Source: a virus
DNA length: 22,505 bases
Direction: 5' to 3' (one strand)
Virus record (IMG/VR): IMGVR_UViG_3300011432_000190
Span: 1 to 22,505 of that record
The notes beneath the pieces are model-generated. The model searched no databases, was not told where the DNA came from, and saw nothing but the letters and a program-made list of their open reading frames with translations. Positions within the stretch are counted from its first letter, which is position 1, and every line of letters starts with the position of its first letter. Of this stretch, positions 1 to 22,505 are shown in pieces. Both the position numbers and the translations under genes were made by a program.

Positions 1-225
1 CAATGGGACGATATGATCCCGAATCGTTGCGACGGTCGTTCGTCCCTCTGCACGACACGCAACGCACAGCGGTTGCTCGGCGAAGAGCGCCGAACGCATG
101 CGCTGTAGTCGACGCCCTCGAACTCGAGCCGTCGGCGCCGCATGGTGCCAGGCCGGCCGAGCGTGCAGCTCGCAGCGTCCCGCCGGAACGATCGCGCCAC
201 ATCCTGGTTCGTTACAGAACTGCAA
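1..225 (-). CDS. HNH endonuclease, C-terminus cut by window edge
   Basis: This frame is open from a TTG at 225 to the window edge (75 codons). It follows the previous stop by 5 bases and has an AAGGGA ribosome site at 240-235. The visible part reads like a phage HNH nuclease: an N-terminal CNEPGC pair, a later CxxH, then CVAC and the start of the HNH core DHIVPL at the edge. The remaining HN motif would lie outside the window. HNH proteins of this type usually sit beside terminase genes and assist DNA packaging by nicking or cutting cos sites. It is the last visible gene of the leftward early block, so the terminase operon may follow directly. The start codon is the least certain part. Confidence 0.75.
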   Translation of the reverse strand, partial: MQFCNEPGCGAIVPAGRCELHARPAWHHAAPTARVRGRRLQRMRSALFAEQPLCVACRAEGRTTVATIRDHIVPL

Positions 226-230
226 CCCGT

Positions 231-779
231 TTATTCCCTTGGAATCTTTCGACCAGTTCGTCCGGTACCGCCACAATGCGGACACTTCTCATACATCATC
301 CGCGCGACTTTTCCGTCTTCTCTGGTCGTCATCAAGTCGAGGTCCTGCGTCTTGAGCCAATGTCGAACTTCCCGCAATGAAGTGAGCCCAAAATTCTTGA
401 TACTCAATAGATCTTCGTCGCTCCATAGGAGCAGATCTGACACGGTATCAATACCAACCGTTGGCGGTGACTGGCCTCGCCGCATCGTCAACTGACTCTC
501 GAATTTGGCGTTACTGAAGCAACTTCGGACGCGCACACTCAGAGGTAAGAGTTGTACGCACCGACTAAGAACAGGCAGCTTCGTTTCCGCCGCCGCTGTC
601 ACAGCGCGATGTTGTCGCCACCGCTCGCGAATGGCAATCTCACGGACGCGACAATGACTTATTCCAAAGAGTTGACCGATTTCGCGATAGGTCTCGGTTG
701 ACGTCTCAACCATTTCGAAAATGCGCCGGTCTCGGTCCACTTTCGTACTCGCGTCGATGCGCGTTGCTTTGGCGTTCAA
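231..779 (-). CDS. Chimeric regulator: sigma-region-4-like HTH plus RNAP alpha-CTD-like domain
   Basis: 182 residues from a TTG at 779 preceded by AGGGAGG. Residues about 15-55 hold an HTH resembling sigma-70 region 4.2 (YREIGQLFGISHCRVREI). Residues about 76-148 resemble the RNA polymerase alpha subunit C-terminal domain: LPLSVRVRSCFSNA matches the first helix, and VGIDTVSDLL, then DEDLLSIKNFGLTSLREV, match the helix-hairpin-helix end, with an insertion of roughly 12 residues between. The alpha lysine of NLGKKS is replaced (NFGLTS). The C-terminus has CPHCGGTGRTG, like one DnaJ-type zinc repeat. The gene is AT-richer than its neighbours (26 and 27 G+C in bases 361-420 and 661-720). It ends the early block just before the HNH gene. 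I infer a transcription regulator, possibly for late genes; no experimental family is known to me. Confidence 0.8.
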   Translation of the reverse strand: MNAKATRIDASTKVDRDRRIFEMVETSTETYREIGQLFGISHCRVREIAIRERWRQHRAVTAAAETKLPVLSRCVQLLPLSVRVRSCFSNAKFESQLTMRRGQSPPTVGIDTVSDLLLWSDEDLLSIKNFGLTSLREVRHWLKTQDLDLMTTREDGKVARMMYEKCPHCGGTGRTGRKIPRE

Positions 780-788
780 CGGTCCTCC

Positions 789-1007
789 CTAGTTCATGCG
801 AGCCGGCCGGTGAATGTAGCCGCCATTGAGACGGACGAGCGCGTCCGCGACGGTTGGCGCCTCGAGCCCGTCGATAACGGACGCCAAGATCGAAACCAGA
901 TAGAAACGCCGCATGTCATCGGTCAGGATCGGCGACTGTTCGCCGGCATGCCGACGGATGACGTCGTCGAGCGCGTCCGGGAGTCGCAGCGTCACTAATC
1001 GATCCAT
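789..1007 (-). CDS. Small ribbon-helix-helix-like protein
   Basis: 72 residues. The ATG at 1007 has an AGGGAG ribosome site 6 bases upstream. The N-terminus MDRLVTLRLPDALDDVI looks like the beta strand and first helix of a ribbon-helix-helix DNA-binding protein, followed by a predominantly helical segment. The match is by shape only, with no diagnostic residue. The stop lies 9 bases before the start of the chimeric regulator, inside whose ribosome site region it ends. A small transcriptional regulator is possible; otherwise it is a hypothetical phage protein. Confidence 0.65.
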   Translation of the reverse strand: MDRLVTLRLPDALDDVIRRHAGEQSPILTDDMRRFYLVSILASVIDGLEAPTVADALVRLNGGYIHRPARMN

Positions 1008-1197
1008 TGTTGTGCTCCCTATCGTGACGCCAGGCGATCGCGCGCGCCGCGGCCATCGTCGGCGCCGTCTCGAGAAACGTAGTACACGCTAAACACTGGA
1101 CGTCGCACGGTTGATCAAATCTCCCGGACGGATACAGGCCGGCATAGATCCGCCATGAGAACCGGCGCTTACTCGAGTTCCCGGATCGTGATGCCAT
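916..1197 (-). CDS. Possible small zinc-finger protein
   Basis: 93 residues from an ATG at 1197 with GGAGG 6 bases upstream. It fills an otherwise empty 160-base gap but overlaps the upstream gene's end by 29 bases and the downstream gene's start by 92. The middle holds CDVQCLAC followed about 20 residues later by HDREH, a CxxC...HxxxH arrangement seen in many small phage zinc fingers, with an alanine-rich helix between. The final 25 residues are arginine-rich and lie over the next gene, so they look less like selected protein. No function can be assigned. The overlap is the main reason for doubt. Confidence 0.45.
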   Translation of the reverse strand: MASRSGNSSKRRFSWRIYAGLYPSGRFDQPCDVQCLACTTFLETAPTMAAARAIAWRHDREHNNGSISDAATPGRARRRHPSACRRTVADPDR

Positions 1198-1618
1198 GCA
1201 CGGCCTCCGCGATTCGTTTCCGGAGGCGATAGGCCTCCGTTTTTGTCACCGTGCTCTTGACGTCCTCGACGACGATCTCGCCCGTCGACAAATCCCGGTA
1301 TCGAAAATCGGCGGTAAATTTTCCGACGGTCGCAATGCGGATCGGCACTTGCGAGCGCCAGATTTCCATGACATGCAACGGGAACACCGGCTGCAGCTCG
1401 AGCTCGTCAATCTCGCCGGCCTTGCTCATGAGCTTGAGCTCGAGATAACGCGCGGCCTCCCGTTTCGAAGCGAATCGGACGCCGTCGACATGTATCGGCT
1501 CGGCGTGGTACTTGTTCGCCGGCGCCGCCGGACGCTCGAGCTCGGCCGGCGCCAGGTCTGGCGCGATGAGGCCCGCGCGCGCGGCGTACGACGTCCAGGC
1601 GTCGCGATCGGCGTTCAC
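1169..1618 (-). CDS. DUF1064 family, PDDEXK-like nuclease-related phage protein
   Basis: 149 residues from a GTG at 1618 that overlaps the previous TGA (GTGA). The pattern NKYHAEPIHVDGVRFASK, then REAARYLELKL, then LELQPVFPL, ADFRY and VVEDVKS fits DUF1064, a phage family related to PDDEXK nucleases. The acidic residues in ADFRY and the ED-x-K of VEDVK would form the metal site, and the E of the SKREAARY helix a further ligand. In related phages the protein sits among replication and recombination genes and is thought to act on branched or phage DNA. Length is normal for the family. The first 35 residues are a variable extension. Confidence 0.85.
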   Translation of the reverse strand: MNADRDAWTSYAARAGLIAPDLAPAELERPAAPANKYHAEPIHVDGVRFASKREAARYLELKLMSKAGEIDELELQPVFPLHVMEIWRSQVPIRIATVGKFTADFRYRDLSTGEIVVEDVKSTVTKTEAYRLRKRIAEAVHGITIRELE

Positions 1619-1833: not shown

Positions 1834-2114
1834 CCCGTCGCCTCGTCGGCCTCGAGCGCGCGATCGCCGCAAAACCCGCAGACGTGCTCAAACGTGAGAA
1901 TGTCGAGCGTCCGCGACAAGAGCGGATGCTCGCGCGCGTGACGCCGGCGCGCCGCCGGATCGTGTCGCTGGAAATAGCGCGACGTCCCATGCACGATCGG
2001 TGCGCCGCAATCGACGCACGGCTCCGGACACTGCTCGAGCGCCGAGCGGATCTCGTCGGACGACATGAACGGCGTCACCAGCACATACCGCCGGCCGCGG
2101 GCGTCGATGCTCAT
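1830..2114 (-). CDS. Small zinc-ribbon-type protein
   Basis: 94 residues. The chosen ATG at 2114 has GAGGAAG upstream and overlaps the previous stop by one base (TGATG); the reading frame extends further but that part is a shadow of the lipoprotein gene. Two Cys knuckles are visible, CPEPCVDCG near residue 30 and CGFCG near residue 84, enough for one zinc-binding site. Between them is HGTSRYFQRHDP and a basic RRRHAREH stretch. The spacing suggests a structural zinc site and possible nucleic-acid binding, but no named family is recognised. Confidence 0.7.
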   Translation of the reverse strand: MSIDARGRRYVLVTPFMSSDEIRSALEQCPEPCVDCGAPIVHGTSRYFQRHDPAARRRHAREHPLLSRTLDILTFEHVCGFCGDRALEADEATG

Positions 2115-2704
2115 CACTTCCTCGAGGCCGCCCATCGGCGCGCCGTTTCGAACGGGAGTACACCCCATCGAACCATCGCGGTTTCGTTCGCGAGCGGGCA
2201 ATGGTTCCCGATGACGTCGACGATCCAGATCCCCGTGTCGGCGGCCGTCGCTTTGTAGGTGATGACGTCCCGGCCGAACGTCAGACAATTCGCGTCCTTG
2301 CAGAGATAGCCCCATCGGTGATCGCGATCGCGCGCGCGTAACGTGTTGATCAGCTGATCGAGAAATTGCCAGGCCGTCTCACCGGTTTTGTCCTGACAGG
2401 AATTCGCGAGCAGCGCGGGATTTTTGTCCGCGAAATCGCGCGTCACGGCCTCGCCGTAGCTCGGCAATGGGAGCGCGGCGTCCCCGTTCGGCGAGCTCGG
2501 CGTCGACGTCGTCGGCGCCGTATCCGATCGATCGTTGTTATTCGTCGACGTGTTTGTATTGGTATTCGTAATCGTCGGCCCTGTCGGCGACGCCGTCGGC
2601 GTCCCATCGGCCATATCGAGGCGAATATCGCAGGCCGCCAAATAGAGGCCGGCCAGGACGACGACGAGCGCGCGTCTATGCATGCGGTACCGCCTTTTAT
2701 TCAT
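2114..2704 (-). CDS. Predicted lipoprotein, inner-membrane retention signal
   Basis: 196 residues from the ATG at 2704. A second ATG at 2683 has a better ribosome site (AAAAGGCGG) and also precedes an intact signal peptide, so the start is uncertain. The hydrophobic segment ALVVVLAGLYLAAC ends in a lipobox, with Cys25 as the lipidated residue. The next residue is Asp, which in enterobacterial sorting retains lipoproteins in the inner membrane. A Ser/Thr/Asn/Pro-rich flexible linker of about 50 residues follows (TNTNTNTSTNNN), then a globular domain with several Cys (CQDK, CKDANC, HCPL). The domain is not recognised. Envelope function such as exclusion of superinfecting phage is possible but unproven. 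Confidence 0.8.
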   Translation of the reverse strand: MNKRRYRMHRRALVVVLAGLYLAACDIRLDMADGTPTASPTGPTITNTNTNTSTNNNDRSDTAPTTSTPSSPNGDAALPLPSYGEAVTRDFADKNPALLANSCQDKTGETAWQFLDQLINTLRARDRDHRWGYLCKDANCLTFGRDVITYKATAADTGIWIVDVIGNHCPLANETAMVRWGVLPFETARRWAASRK

Positions 2705-4072: not shown

Positions 4073-4318
4073 TTGATAATCTCCGTGAAACAATCCCGGC
4101 CAGTGGAAGTCGACGTCACCAAAAAGGGCTGGCTGTGCGAACGGTGCGGGCACGAATGGATCCCCAAGGTCAAAGGTTTCGCGCCGGCCGTCTGCCCGAA
4201 GTGTAAGAGCCCGTATTGGAACCGTCCGCGGCAAAGCACCAAACCCGCCCCGCCGGCCAAACCTGGACCGAGCAAAAAACCCAATCCCGCGCGCACATCA
4301 CGACGAGTCAAAACGTAA
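4073..4318 (+). CDS. Small zinc-ribbon protein
   Basis: 81 residues if the TTG at 4073 is used; a GTG at 4085 is an alternative and neither has a good ribosome site. Residues 20-50 form a classic zinc ribbon: WLCERCGHEWIPK, a short loop, then CPKCKSPYWNRPR, two CxxC knuckles. The tail is Lys/Pro-rich (PAPPAKPGPSKKPNP) and probably disordered. Short zinc ribbons of this type are common in bacterial and phage genomes and mostly uncharacterised. It is the first gene of the rightward integration module. Confidence 0.75.
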   Translation: MIISVKQSRPVEVDVTKKGWLCERCGHEWIPKVKGFAPAVCPKCKSPYWNRPRQSTKPAPPAKPGPSKKPNPARTSRRVKT

Positions 4319-8238: not shown

Positions 8239-10919
8239 TAGGCGTCCGCCTTTCTAATTAGCATTTGGAGAATCGCCTCGAACGATTGCCGCGCATTGCT
8301 CGCCGTGACCGTGAATTTGGGCGCCTGTCCCGACACGCCCAGCCCGGAGATCGTGACCTCTTGGATCGTCAGCGACTCCGCGATCGCCGGCGTCACGAGC
8401 GCGATCGTGGCCGTTTTTCCACTCTTGGTTTTCTGATCGCGCGTCGCGTACGTCACCGTGACGATCGGCCGGCTGTAGAGCGCGAGCTGGGCATCGCAGA
8501 CCTGTCGCAAGCTCGCCTCCGACCGGCGCTCGTCGCTCCAAATATGCTCATACACGCCGTCGCCACCGCCATCGAGCTCCGTCATATAGGACTGCGCCGC
8601 GAGATCGTCGCGCTGGACCCATACGAAGATCGGCGCATTCCGGATCACCGCATCGAGCACCCCCGAGACGCCGAGCAGCGCAGCCGCCGCCGTGACCGTG
8701 CTGTTGTAGGCGATACTCGCGACAATCGCGCCGGATCCGCTTGCGGGGATCCCCGTCAGGCTCGTCGCCGTTTTGCCGGCATAGCGGATCACCTGATCGC
8801 CGTTCCCGATCACCGCCCAGCCGCCGCCGCTCGCAAACGGCGCCGCATTGGCGACAATCAGCGACGTGGACCCGGCCGGTACTTGCCCGTTGGGTTGTGT
8901 CAGCCCGGACGTATCGCCAGCCGGCGCATCCGCCCCGAGCAACGCATCGCTCGTGCTGTCCGTCATCGCCGTTTGCGTGTTATTCGCGATCGTGCTCAGG
9001 AGTCGCAACGCGCCGCCGCCGCCCGCGACCGTCCGATAAATTTTCCGGCCGGTCACACTCCCGCCACCCGTCGCGAACGTCACGCCCACTTGATTCGCCG
9101 TCGCCGTGTTCGACGCCGGCAACGTCCCGCCCAGGCTCGCCGTGGCCGCCGCATCCGTGTAGGTGGTTTGCGTGTTATTCGCGATCGTCGCGAGTAGCCG
9201 CCACACCGATCCATTCCAGCGATACAGCCGGCGCGCCGTCACGTACGCTGGCCCGATCGCAATCCCGGATAACGGCACCGTCTGATAGGCCGAACCCGGC
9301 ACAAATGCCGTGTTACTACTTGGCGGCGCCCCGCCGACTAATCCCGTCCCGCCTTCCGGCCCGTCCGTTTCGTAGCCATTGGGGAGATCCCAATGCCCTT
9401 GATTGACCCCGTTGCGATACCGATAGATCCGCTTCGCCGTCACGCTTAGATCCGGCGACACTTGGATGTTTTTTAGCTGAATCGCCCGCACATAGCCAGG
9501 CTGCCCCGTCTTCGCGACACCCGTCACCGCGTTCGACGCCGGCCCAAGCGTCGTAACGCCGGCCGCATTCACAAAGGCAAACCGATAGGTAATCTGATCT
9601 CCAACGTTCCACGCTTGATGGGAATACCCGAACTCATCCGGATCCGGCGACTCGTTCGCCGCCGAGAGTTTTGCTGTTGGCGCCGGCACATAGTAGCCAC
9701 CCGCGCCCGCCACCGTCACTGGCCCACTCGCCGCCGGACTATCCGTTTCCCCGCTCGCCGTGACGAACGTCACGCCGTAATAGAACGACCCCGGCTCAAT
9801 CGCGCCGCCCGCTTGCACGGCGCCGATCACCGGCGAGACTGGCGGCGCCGCCGTCACGCCGACGACGGCCACCGCGATCGGGCTGGGCGCCGTTTCCCCG
9901 CTCGCCGTCGTAAACGTGATCGCGTAGGAATGGACGCCCGACTCGATCCCCGCACCCGGGACCACCGCGAGCACCGGCGGCGCCGATGGGGACGCGCCCG
10001 GCCCGACCAACCCGCCGCCGCCGCCGAGCTGCACGCCCGTATATGTCAGCACCCGCGACGCGGCGCCATCCGGCGTCACGCCCGCGATCGCCTGTCCGCC
10101 GCTCGCCGTGAACATTTCCGCATTCGCCACCGGCACCGACGCGGCGCCAGCCGCCAGCGACGCCACGATCCGCGTGCTCGCGCCCTTGCCATATACGCGC
10201 GTGCGGACTTGCGATTTATCCATGCTCCACCGAATCGCGGGATCGTGGAGAAACCGCCCCGGCGTATCGTCGATCGGATCCGGCGGGATCCCCGGCGCCG
10301 TCACGAAGAGATACAGCGTTTTGTTCTCAAAAAACCAATACCCACCGATCAACTTCGCGAGCGCCGTCAGACACCCTTTCATGCCCGCTTCCGAGCCGTC
10401 GAATGTAATCGTCACCGCCGGCAAGCCCGCCTCGACGCCCGCACTCGAGAAGCCCGGCGCGTACGTGGCGATCAACTCTTGCGCGATCGTTGTGGCGGAG
10501 ACGTTCACGTACGGTCGCAACGGCCGCCGGCGATTCGCCCGCGCCGCATCGTCGATCGCCGTCACGGGATAGATCACCGTCCCCGGCCGGCCCTTGTAGG
10601 TCCGATCGCACGTTTGCAGCTCGCCACTAAACAGCAGCACCGGCGTATCCGAATTGATCCAGACCTCGATCGGCTGTCCCACGTTCGGCGCCGCGCCGTA
10701 GATCGTCAGCGCGCACGTGTTGGGCGCCTCGAAGAGCGCATCGCGAATCGTCAGCGACTTGTAGATCACCCGCATGGGCGAATCCGGCCGCGTGATATCG
10801 ATCCCGCCCAAAATGATCCGAATATGGTTCGGCCGTTCGGCCGCTTGCGCCGGCGTGAGATAGTCCAGCCGAAAGTTGTTCAGCCGCGCCGAGCCGAGAA
10901 CGGCAGGCTGATACGGCAT
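8238..10919 (-). CDS. Tail hub protein with inserted Ig-like repeat modules
   Basis: 893 residues from an ATG at 10919, coupled to the tape measure's stop (TGATG). Residues 1-245 look like a tail hub or baseplate protein: SPMRVIYKSLTIRDALFEAP, VWINSDTPVLLFSGEL, VIYPVTAIDDAARAN, then WSMDKSQVRTRVYGKGA. The hub appears to resume near 750 (NAPIFVWVQRDDLAAQSY, SEASLRQVCDAQLALYSRP). Between them are Ig/FN3-like modules: two copies with ITFTTASGETAPSP and VTFVTASGETDSP (about 320-400), and two with LLATIANNTQT and LLSTIANNTQT (about 565-665). A 23-base exact DNA repeat at 8971-8993 and 9166-9188 marks recent duplication. Such modules often bind cell-surface glycans. Confidence 0.82.
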   Translation of the reverse strand: MPYQPAVLGSARLNNFRLDYLTPAQAAERPNHIRIILGGIDITRPDSPMRVIYKSLTIRDALFEAPNTCALTIYGAAPNVGQPIEVWINSDTPVLLFSGELQTCDRTYKGRPGTVIYPVTAIDDAARANRRRPLRPYVNVSATTIAQELIATYAPGFSSAGVEAGLPAVTITFDGSEAGMKGCLTALAKLIGGYWFFENKTLYLFVTAPGIPPDPIDDTPGRFLHDPAIRWSMDKSQVRTRVYGKGASTRIVASLAAGAASVPVANAEMFTASGGQAIAGVTPDGAASRVLTYTGVQLGGGGGLVGPGASPSAPPVLAVVPGAGIESGVHSYAITFTTASGETAPSPIAVAVVGVTAAPPVSPVIGAVQAGGAIEPGSFYYGVTFVTASGETDSPAASGPVTVAGAGGYYVPAPTAKLSAANESPDPDEFGYSHQAWNVGDQITYRFAFVNAAGVTTLGPASNAVTGVAKTGQPGYVRAIQLKNIQVSPDLSVTAKRIYRYRNGVNQGHWDLPNGYETDGPEGGTGLVGGAPPSSNTAFVPGSAYQTVPLSGIAIGPAYVTARRLYRWNGSVWRLLATIANNTQTTYTDAAATASLGGTLPASNTATANQVGVTFATGGGSVTGRKIYRTVAGGGGALRLLSTIANNTQTAMTDSTSDALLGADAPAGDTSGLTQPNGQVPAGSTSLIVANAAPFASGGGWAVIGNGDQVIRYAGKTATSLTGIPASGSGAIVASIAYNSTVTAAAALLGVSGVLDAVIRNAPIFVWVQRDDLAAQSYMTELDGGGDGVYEHIWSDERRSEASLRQVCDAQLALYSRPIVTVTYATRDQKTKSGKTATIALVTPAIAESLTIQEVTISGLGVSGQAPKFTVTASNARQSFEAILQMLIRKADA
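8971..9188. repeat. 23-base exact direct repeat in tail hub gene
   Basis: Copies at 8971-8993 and 9166-9188 begin GTTTGCGTGTTATTCGCGAT. They encode the TIANNTQT motif of two neighbouring modules. Identity at DNA level suggests recent duplication or recombination. Confidence 0.75.
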
Positions 10920-19038: not shown

Positions 19039-19307
19039 ATCGGGGGCCTGGCCGCATACAGCCCACACGCGAGCCACTTCGCGCGCCAGTCCGAGGCCTC
19101 GCTCGAGGTGACGCCGGCGAGCTCGCATTTCAGGAACGCGCGCGCGCCCGGCGTATAGCGGACCAGATGCATACAGCCCTTGCACGTTCGGCCGCCAACG
19201 TCCTGGCCGTATGCGGTGTGCATCTTGACGAGGCGTGCGGCGCCGTTCGCGACGCGCGTCCGTTTGACGCGATTCAATTCCGGGTGGCCGAATAGATCGA
19301 GGCTCAT
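19035..19307 (-). CDS. Small Cys-rich phage protein next to terminase
   Basis: 90 residues from an ATG at 19307 within the terminase stop (ATGA). It begins MSLDLFG, then after a basic stretch has CKGCMHLVRY, a further Cys in FLKCELAGVT, and WRAKWLACGLY, four Cys that could bind one zinc. This Cys-rich pattern with DWRAKWxACGLY occurs in small phage proteins of unknown function. No catalytic site is visible. Its position beside terminase suggests a role in packaging, but that is inference. Confidence 0.75.
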   Translation of the reverse strand: MSLDLFGHPELNRVKRTRVANGAARLVKMHTAYGQDVGGRTCKGCMHLVRYTPGARAFLKCELAGVTSSEASDWRAKWLACGLYAARPPI

Positions 19308-20860
19308 GCCGGTCCTCCGAGAATCACCATTTGAAATTCCGGCGGACGCGTTCCGGCGTCGCGATACATCGCATCGATCGCCATGACGAGCGCGACGACG
19401 CCGTCGATCCGTTCCGTCGATTTCGCTTTCGACGGTTGAATATTACCGGCGTTATCGGTATCGACGGCTGTATTCCCGACGTTCCAGCGTAGAACCGGGT
19501 GCCCGTCCTGCCGTAGCGTTTTCTCGAGGATCGCTTTCTCGAGCGCCTTCGATGGCGCCGAGAGGGACGCTTTCCCCTGGCGCATCTTGACGCACACGAA
19601 CCCGTCGACCTTCTCGAGGCGCGAGACGAGGTCGGTTGCGTTCCACGGATCGAACGCGACGAGGCGCAAATCGTAGCGCTCGCGCCAGGTGTGCAAATGC
19701 GCGCGGACGGCCTCGTAATCGACCACCGGCCCCGGTGTCGCCGTCAAGAATCCACGCCGGACCCACTCGTCGTATGGGACGCGATCCCGCGTCACGCGCA
19801 TCGGGATCCGCTCGGCCGGCATGAAAAACTGCGCCAGGACCGCAAACCCGGCGCCGTCGTCGTCGGGAAAGACGGCGACGGCCGCGGTCAAGTCGGTTGT
19901 CGTCGACAAGTCGAGGCCGACATAGCAGCGACGGCCGGCGAGCTCGGCCAGGTCGAGCGGTACCTGACAGGCGTCCCAGGATACGAGCGAAAGCCAGCGC
20001 GTATCTTGCTCCGTCCACTGATTCAGGTACAGCCGCCGAAAGCTATTTTCTTGCGCCGGGATTTCTCGCGCGCGCGCACAGGCGATCCGGAGCTCCTCGA
20101 GCGATCGGAAATCGCCGAGCGCCGGATTTGTCGCGCGCCACACGGCCTCACTCGTCCAATCGGCGTCGGCTGGCGCCTCGTAGAGGATCGGGAGAAATGT
20201 CGGATCAAGCGCTGGGTTTTCCTTGACCTTGCGCGCATGTTGATAGAGCTCCCAGAGGATCGAATGGCGATCGTAGCCGGCGGTTGAAATCGCAATAAAG
20301 AGCGGTTGCGCGCGCGCGCCCATGCTCGAGGCGAGGACGTCAAACAGATCCCGCGACGTCGCCGCATGGACTTCGTCGTAAATGACGCGCGAGGCGTTCA
20401 ATCCGTGTTTGCTATAAGCCTCCGCGGAAATCGCGCGATAGATACTCCCGGTCCGCCGATGCACGATCCGTTTTTGCGACTCAATGATTTCGCATGCGGC
20501 AAAGAGTTCGGGATCGTTCCGGACCATTTGCGCGGCGACGTTGAAACAGAGCGCCGCTTGGTCTTTATCGCTGCCAGCCGAATACACTTCCGCGCCGATT
20601 TCGTCATCGAATAACAGGCCGTCGAGCGCGAGCGCGGCGCCGAGTTCCGTTTTTCCGTTTTTCCTCGGAATCATGAGGAGGCACATCCGTTTTTCGCGGA
20701 GGCCTGTCACTTTATTGATCGCGAAGAGCGGCCGAATGATGTGCTTTTCCTGCCACGGCCGGAGGTTGAACGGTTGCCCGGCGAATGGCCCTTTCGTGTG
20801 GGTGAGCTGATTTATGAGGCGAACCTTGCGCGAGGGGACCGATTCGCGCCGGCCGGCCAT
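19304..20860 (-). CDS. terL: Terminase large subunit
   Basis: 518 residues from an ATG at 20860 overlapping the upstream stop (TAATG). The ATPase half has the HK97/P27-type Walker A IPRKNGKTE (residues 64-72), Walker B RVIYDEVHA (158-166) and the coupling motif FIAISTAGY. The nuclease half has CYVGLDLSTTTDLTA (Asp317), LVAFDPWNATD (Asp404) and RIDGVVALVMAIDA (Asp486), an RNase H-like acidic triad. The enzyme pumps DNA into the prohead and cuts concatemers, working with the small subunit at the window's right edge. Length and order are typical and nothing is missing. Confidence 0.96.
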   Translation of the reverse strand: MAGRRESVPSRKVRLINQLTHTKGPFAGQPFNLRPWQEKHIIRPLFAINKVTGLREKRMCLLMIPRKNGKTELGAALALDGLLFDDEIGAEVYSAGSDKDQAALCFNVAAQMVRNDPELFAACEIIESQKRIVHRRTGSIYRAISAEAYSKHGLNASRVIYDEVHAATSRDLFDVLASSMGARAQPLFIAISTAGYDRHSILWELYQHARKVKENPALDPTFLPILYEAPADADWTSEAVWRATNPALGDFRSLEELRIACARAREIPAQENSFRRLYLNQWTEQDTRWLSLVSWDACQVPLDLAELAGRRCYVGLDLSTTTDLTAAVAVFPDDDGAGFAVLAQFFMPAERIPMRVTRDRVPYDEWVRRGFLTATPGPVVDYEAVRAHLHTWRERYDLRLVAFDPWNATDLVSRLEKVDGFVCVKMRQGKASLSAPSKALEKAILEKTLRQDGHPVLRWNVGNTAVDTDNAGNIQPSKAKSTERIDGVVALVMAIDAMYRDAGTRPPEFQMVILGGPA

Positions 20861-21985: not shown

Positions 21986-22122
21986 TAGGAAATCAAAAGC
22001 GACAACATCCACACGGCCAGGCCGGCGGCGACGAGGTTGATTTTTGACGGGACGCCGAGCGCCGCGGCGACGAACAACGCAAACGCGAGCAAATGCAGAA
22101 TCGCGACAATCGTCAACGTCAT
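21985..22122 (-). CDS. 45-residue membrane protein with two hydrophobic segments
   Basis: Short gene with a strong GGGGAGGG ribosome site, an ATG at 22122 and a TAA at 21985. Translation gives MTLTIVAILHLLAFALFVAA, a short polar turn GVPSKINL, then a second hydrophobic segment VAAGLAVWMLSLLIS. The start overlaps the small terminase stop (ATGA) and the stop overlaps the next gene (TAATG). A tiny hairpin membrane protein of this form can be holin-like or unrelated; position next to terminase does not decide. Confidence 0.8.
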   Translation of the reverse strand: MTLTIVAILHLLAFALFVAAALGVPSKINLVAAGLAVWMLSLLIS

Positions 22123-22505
22123 AACATCCCTCCCCATTTACTGACTGGCGTCGCCGAGCTCGGCGCCGGCGCGCGCGCCGCCGGGAGTCGCGCGACTTTT
22201 GCGCGGCCCGACGGCGTCAATCCGAGCTCGGACCAGAGTCGATGACAATGGCCGAGCGCGCGATCGGCGACGTCGATGTACGGCGACACGCGCGCGACGC
22301 CGTCCCGGACTTTGACGACGCCGTCCTTCCGGAGTTTCGCGCGCGCCGCGAGGTACGCGCTCCACTCAAAACAGAGCGAGACGAGCGCCGATCGCTCGGC
22401 CTCGCTGATCAGTCCGCACAATCGCAAGACGGGCGCGACGCGGCGCCATTCCGCGCGCGCGCGCTTGTCGCCGGCGAGCTCGGCCGGCGGTTCGTCAAAC
22501 GAGGC
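22119..22505 (-). CDS. terS: Terminase small subunit, P27 family, N-terminus cut by window edge
   Basis: At least 128 codons are visible to the right edge; the true start lies outside. Reading continues from the edge as FDEPPAELAGDKRARAEWRR, VAPVLRLCGLISEAERSALV, then FEWSAYLAARAKLRKDG, VSPYIDVADRALGHCHRLWS and ELGLTPSGRAKV. This is the P27-type small terminase: proline-start helix, WRR-containing helix, and the final LGLTPSGR motif. It binds packaging signals and directs the large subunit. Genes downstream are the tiny membrane protein and DUF7694 protein. The end is TGA at 22119. Confidence 0.88.
   Translation of the reverse strand, partial: ASFDEPPAELAGDKRARAEWRRVAPVLRLCGLISEAERSALVSLCFEWSAYLAARAKLRKDGVVKVRDGVARVSPYIDVADRALGHCHRLWSELGLTPSGRAKVARLPAARAPAPSSATPVSKWGGML

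Follow-up and report, generated by a model that had tools for sequence, protein, structure and literature searches.

Phages usually bend host RNA polymerase with small proteins, some of which contact sigma or beta and others of which modify alpha. Late regulators of the ArpU type are small phage helix-turn-helix (HTH) proteins whose genes lie toward the close of the early region, ahead of the terminase, as does the gene described here, and the Mor and C proteins of phage Mu activate transcription together with the host polymerase. To our knowledge, neither ArpU nor Mor/C carries the C-terminal domain of the polymerase alpha subunit (α-CTD). In Escherichia coli, R265 of alpha touches UP-element DNA (PMC3828302), and R584, E585, and R588 of sigma70 contact bases of the -35 element (PMC2613000). 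Among cultured phages, ORF40 of Erythrobacter phage vB_EliS-L02 has been annotated as an α-CTD gene (PMC9127768).

The gene considered here occupies positions 231..779 (minus strand) of the window, by which we mean the whole 22,505-nucleotide stretch analyzed, positions 1 to 22,505 of IMG/VR record IMGVR_UViG_3300011432_000190. It encodes a 182-residue protein and reads from a TTG start at 779 to a TAA stop at 231-233, with an in-frame stop codon 12 nt 5′ of the TTG and a Shine-Dalgarno-like AGGGAGG, read from the sequence, at 784..790 on the minus strand. Direct homologues of the protein were absent from the viral contigs, phage records, and plasmids searched. Upstream in the same operon lies a DUF1064/Holliday-junction-resolvase-like gene (1169..1618, minus strand), which is followed by small ORFs and an HNH gene in relatives too. 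Beginning 5 nt past the stop codon of our gene is an HNH endonuclease ORF (1..225, minus strand, TTG start at 225) that runs past the left edge of the window and has homologues in loci L007, L008, and others. The terminase small subunit gene (TerS; 22119..22505, minus strand; phrog_83, E = 1.9e-13) runs past the right edge and comes after HNH in L008 and L003, and the large subunit gene (TerL; phrog_9, E = 1.4e-157) lies at 19304..20860 on the minus strand. In the relative L008, early genes are followed by HNH (8953-9279), a 225-bp gap, TerS (9504-9995), and TerL, and early-gene matches lie upstream with shared orientation. This synteny bears out the position proposed in the initial annotation, as last gene of the early operon and just before HNH-TerS-TerL. 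Tests of end overlap and frame for circularity revealed no direct terminal repeat in the 22,505-base window; the record looks near-complete and circularly permuted, with about 0.4-0.5 kb lacking between its ends as estimated from L003 and L008.

Among the 31 gene models of the window, which has an overall GC content of 63%, the 231..779 gene has the lowest GC (53.0%) and GC3 (55%). The gene had been called AT-richer than its neighbors at 43-45% GC; that figure came from two short samples and does not hold for the whole gene, although the claim itself does, and the whole-gene GC and GC3 values rule out a sampling artifact. No α-CTD gene was found in 50 records with a related TerL, several of which are fragments, and the small ORFs that fill the slot preceding HNH differ from one relative to the next. 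Given this absence and a GC and GC3 below those of every other gene model in the window, we regard the gene, on sequence grounds, as accessory and probably foreign. The TerL clade has 423 relatives in viral contigs and a single distant match (37%, in a Dehalococcoidia MAG) among 84,980 bacterial and archaeal genomes. The phage carries an integrase and a Xis-like regulator and is therefore probably temperate; adjoining the integrase, and divergent from the early operon, is a small zinc-ribbon-like ORF (4073-4318, plus strand). Elsewhere in the early operon, an ORF at 2114-2704 (minus strand) appears lipoprotein-like, with a signal followed by LAACD and an Asn/Thr-rich stretch. Similar ORFs occur in the early regions of L072 and L074, and the product is possibly a membrane protein that alters the host surface.

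Residues 74-149 of the 182-residue protein (333..560, minus strand) correspond to an α-CTD split by an insert, as judged from PF03118, Foldseek, and profile scores. The Pfam family RNA_pol_A_CTD (PF03118) matches with E = 1.8e-11 and 44 bits, above its cut-off of 23.8, and α-CTD chains in the PDB are matched both by sequence and by fold in Foldseek, an agreement well past what chance would give. An AlphaFold2 model of the protein, for which 49 related phage sequences were supplied, has a mean pLDDT of 81.5. Its best shape match is the α-CTD 1z3e_B (TMt 0.89, rmsd 1.0), and it also matches 9zum, a Caulobacter α-CTD on AT-rich DNA, with a TMt of about 0.8. Helices are predicted at residues 82-101, 113-117, 121-125, and 132-144, so that the full helix set is present. 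By profile and predicted structure, the domain is a genuine, complete α-CTD fold. The initial annotation had proposed an α-CTD-like domain and had staked it on profile similarity and an (HhH)2-type fold; both checks were run and the α-CTD survived them, borne out by the above-cut-off PF03118 score, the fold match, and an equivalent of R265. Outside the C-terminal part of the protein, there was no match to the alpha N-terminal assembly domain, and the protein is not a whole RpoA.

The R265 equivalent is R83 (531..533, minus strand), placed by alignment. It is invariant in all 74 of the other phage α-CTDs that we collected, and its column, which the search patterns leave unforced whereas several other contact columns are partly forced by them, is the sole invariant one outside those patterns, the next such column standing at 85%. 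Because the phage α-CTD domains share a median pairwise identity of 40%, this conservation does not merely reflect recent copying. Five of the seven DNA-contact residues (R265, N268, C269, G296, K298, S299, and E302) are kept, as R83, C87, G131, S134, and E137, and two are altered, N268 to S86 and K298 to T133. The sigma-contact residue E261 is replaced by P79, and E273 by A91. From these residues and the predicted fold, we consider with good confidence that the α-CTD is likely to bind DNA.

The 17-residue in-frame insert that splits the domain (residues 92-108; 456..506, minus strand) was located by alignments and profile scores. These scores identify helix 1 as LPLSVRVRSCFSNA (residues 78-91), with the insert directly after it, and in the model, helix 1 of the α-CTD fold comes from residues 82 onward, N-terminal to the insert. 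The α-CTD profile scores 71.4 bits when the insert is skipped, 56.6 bits on the unaltered stretch, and 48 bits without helix 1. A gap-free reading in which segment 92-108 (LTMRRGQSPPT) itself serves as helix 1 was rejected since it brings no profile gain (48.5 versus 48.2 bits), compared with 71.4 when the upstream segment is used and the insert left out. The insert was not present in any other aligned phage α-CTD. It would fall in the loop between helices 1 and 2, on the 273 side and distant from the residues that contact DNA in E. coli alpha, and in the confidently predicted AlphaFold2 fold it is placed as a helix extension plus loop.

The N-terminal domain (residues 10-67; 579..752, minus strand) had been described as a sigma-4-like HTH, a claim of which the HTH stands and the sigma likeness weakens. 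Helices are predicted at residues 10-26, 31-38, and 42-67, and the domain modeled alone with AlphaFold2 is a three-helix HTH. Its match to Sigma70_r4 (PF04545; E = 4.7e-4) reaches 20.1 bits, below the cut-off of 24.1. Sigma region 4 or sigma subunits make up approximately 31 of its top 50 Foldseek neighbors, in a PDB that is rich in sigma structures, with a best E of 0.36 and none significant; Mu C (9l0x) is among the weak fold matches, and a TerS family, phrog_1206, gives a weak match (E = 0.11). When aligned by eye, the positions of R584 and E585, the two principal -35 base contacts, are occupied by H42 and C43, and R588 alone is kept, as R46. Together, the profile and model are suggestive of a weak resemblance to sigma region 4, in a loose sense.

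At the C terminus is one copy of CxxCxGxG (CPHCGGTG, residues 166-173; 261..284, minus strand), in a region modeled by AlphaFold2 with low confidence (pLDDT about 50). A DnaJ-type zinc domain has four such repeats. The motif reported earlier is indeed there, as a single pair in a low-confidence tail, and is weaker as a zinc motif than claimed. An N-terminal CPHCG motif ahead of the α-CTD was observed in five other phage proteins (L150, L151, L169, L174, and L176).

To place the protein among other phage α-CTDs, we ran two pattern scans of viral contigs, which yielded 74 distinct phage α-CTD proteins, or 75 with the window protein. All 75 match PF03118. Sigma70_r4 is detected at E ≤ 0.01 in nine of them, the window protein included, and some others carry other HTH types; in at least four (L084, L108, L147, and L179), both domains score above their Pfam cut-offs. 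Domain order varies across the set, with the α-CTD first in L086 and L158, and free-standing α-CTD proteins of 66-130 residues are common. A further search driven by a four-row alignment returned the known α-CTD loci plus two more only, and no PHROGs family matched the α-CTD of the window protein. In tblastn against 50,697 phage records, the window protein had no match, and two relatives matched only human-faecal phage contigs and records bearing host-type rpoA sequence. Among 121 genomes from the phylum of the Dehalococcoidia MAG, nearly all have rpoA and several hold extra short α-CTD frames of about 120-250 residues, any prophage copies included, from which free α-CTDs appear not to be confined to phages.

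The genes of these proteins adjoin various functions. In L084 (22-2433), a 118-residue Sigma70_r4 plus α-CTD protein is encoded between TerS and TerL, its gene overlapping the start of TerL, and this is a cleaner case than the window gene. In L157, whose protein gives a weak Mor match, and L096, an HTH-α-CTD gene lies directly ahead of TerL. α-CTD genes are found directly 5′ of terminase or portal genes in unrelated phages (L084, L096, L157, L170, L181, and L094), L163 providing one upstream case, and other α-CTD genes adjoin DNA polymerase, SSB, RecT/Erf, ParB, or methyltransferase genes. The link to the terminase is suggestive, not general. The combination of HTH and α-CTD had been put forward as one without a described precedent in phages. 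That the pairing recurs in uncultivated phages counts against its being unique, but in the open-licence literature we found no functional study of a phage protein with both domains. The pairing is a recurrent but undescribed phage architecture, of which the window gene is a variant.

We lean toward the view, on sequence evidence, that the 182-residue protein regulates transcription. For the fuller reading, in which it is a two-domain DNA-binding regulator that uses host RNA polymerase on phage promoters, the domain assignments and model leave us at about even chances. On this regulator reading, the HTH would read a specific phage site, and the α-CTD would grip the A/T-rich minor groove beside it, much as the host α-CTD does when it neighbors sigma region 4 on DNA with an UP element and a -35 element. 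In 3n97, a solved complex in which an α-CTD and sigma region 4 share a DNA molecule and which is among the fold matches of both the α-CTD and the HTH, the two kinds of domain do sit side by side. The bound protein would then help host RNA polymerase onto the phage promoter and, because the alpha N-terminal domain is absent, would act in trans instead of forming part of the polymerase. The likeliest promoter would be in the HNH-TerS gap, about 0.2 kb in L008, which lies between the ends of the window, outside the sequenced stretch. In support of the regulator reading are the PF03118 match, the α-CTD fold, R83, the terminase- or portal-adjacent genes elsewhere, and the position before HNH-TerS-TerL, and the recurrence of HTH plus α-CTD in unrelated phages suggests that selection keeps joining the two. 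Against it are the sub-cut-off HTH, the substitutions H42/C43, S86, T133, and P79, and the many other phage α-CTD genes that adjoin replication genes instead of the terminase. That the protein activates late genes specifically is possible but doubtful. Because the gene is missing from the 50 related-terminase records, late expression in this phage group would not depend on it; this absence argues against a conserved late-activator role. More broadly, uncultivated phages may repeatedly have fused sigma region 4 with α-CTD into chimeras that unite both of the polymerase's upstream promoter readers in a single free protein and define a class of phage promoters, UP-like plus -35-like, read by host RNA polymerase only with the chimera, a speculation that we think rather unlikely to hold.

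Parts of the same evidence would suit other functions. The common free-standing α-CTD proteins, the invariant R265 equivalent, and the α-CTD genes in early regions near DNA polymerase, SSB, and recombination genes could all fit host take-over, in which a free α-CTD would lower host transcription by titrating host activators or by competing with the host α-CTD at UP elements. The added HTH, however, suggests that particular sites are selected, which is at odds with general competition, the early operon ends with this gene, and the activator-contact residues are partly kept (P79 for E261, A91 for E273) with the insert at the 273-side loop, and we consider take-over unlikely. A local repressor or autoregulator of the early operon or lysogeny switch, as opposed to an activator, is a less probable alternative still: an HTH plus a second DNA-binding domain would suffice for repression, and the integrase and Xis-like regulator make the phage a probable temperate one, but a plain repressor would hardly be expected to carry an α-CTD, and the gene lies away from the integrase, immediately ahead of HNH-TerS.

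We judge it very unlikely that the protein is a packaging accessory, a DNA-recognition helper for terminase. Although the L084 gene between TerS and TerL, the L157 and L096 genes directly before TerL, and the weak match of the HTH to phrog_1206 would agree with such a role, a normal TerS (phrog_83) is present in the window phage as well as in L084, many phage α-CTD genes lie far from the terminase, and we know of no α-CTD in packaging. The low GC and GC3, the lack of a close homologue in any searched collection, the absence of the gene from related records, and an insert missing from relatives might also be read as signs of a functionless gene, acquired recently and now in decay, its α-CTD broken by those 17 residues. 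The 182-codon open frame with its good ribosome site, the conserved fold residues flanking the insert, and the confident predicted fold, insert included, make this reading highly improbable.

The window protein has no match to the ArpU family in Pfam, PHROGs, or NCBIfam and none to the Mor/C profile. If the regulator reading is true, a family that copies the α-CTD with its R265 arginine and adds an HTH would represent another route to the host polymerase, and such proteins would supply small parts for promoter switching. The family has probably been overlooked since cultured phages show almost no trace of it, as the tblastn search of the 50,697 phage records indicates, and from sequence the pairing is a plausible kind of phage gene switch. 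With the C-terminal domain of RpoA (PF03118), the protein shares the fold and the equivalents of R265 (R83), C269, G296, S299, and E302; unlike RpoA, it lacks the alpha N-terminal domain, has the 17-residue insert, and has changed equivalents of N268, K298, E261, and E273. Free-standing phage α-CTDs, including entries from uncultured Caudovirales in UniProt/BFVD and ORF40 of vB_EliS-L02 (PMC9127768), likewise occur without the alpha N-terminal domain, whereas the window protein adds the HTH, the insert, and the Cys-pair tail; the BFVD entries appeared as structural matches, identified by name only. Proteins of the L084 type show no clear alignment with it beyond the two domains, often have better Sigma70_r4 scores, and none has its insert or CxxCxGxG tail. 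L084, L108, L147, L179, L096, L129, and others share both domains and their order with the window protein, and the L084 gene likewise adjoins the terminase.
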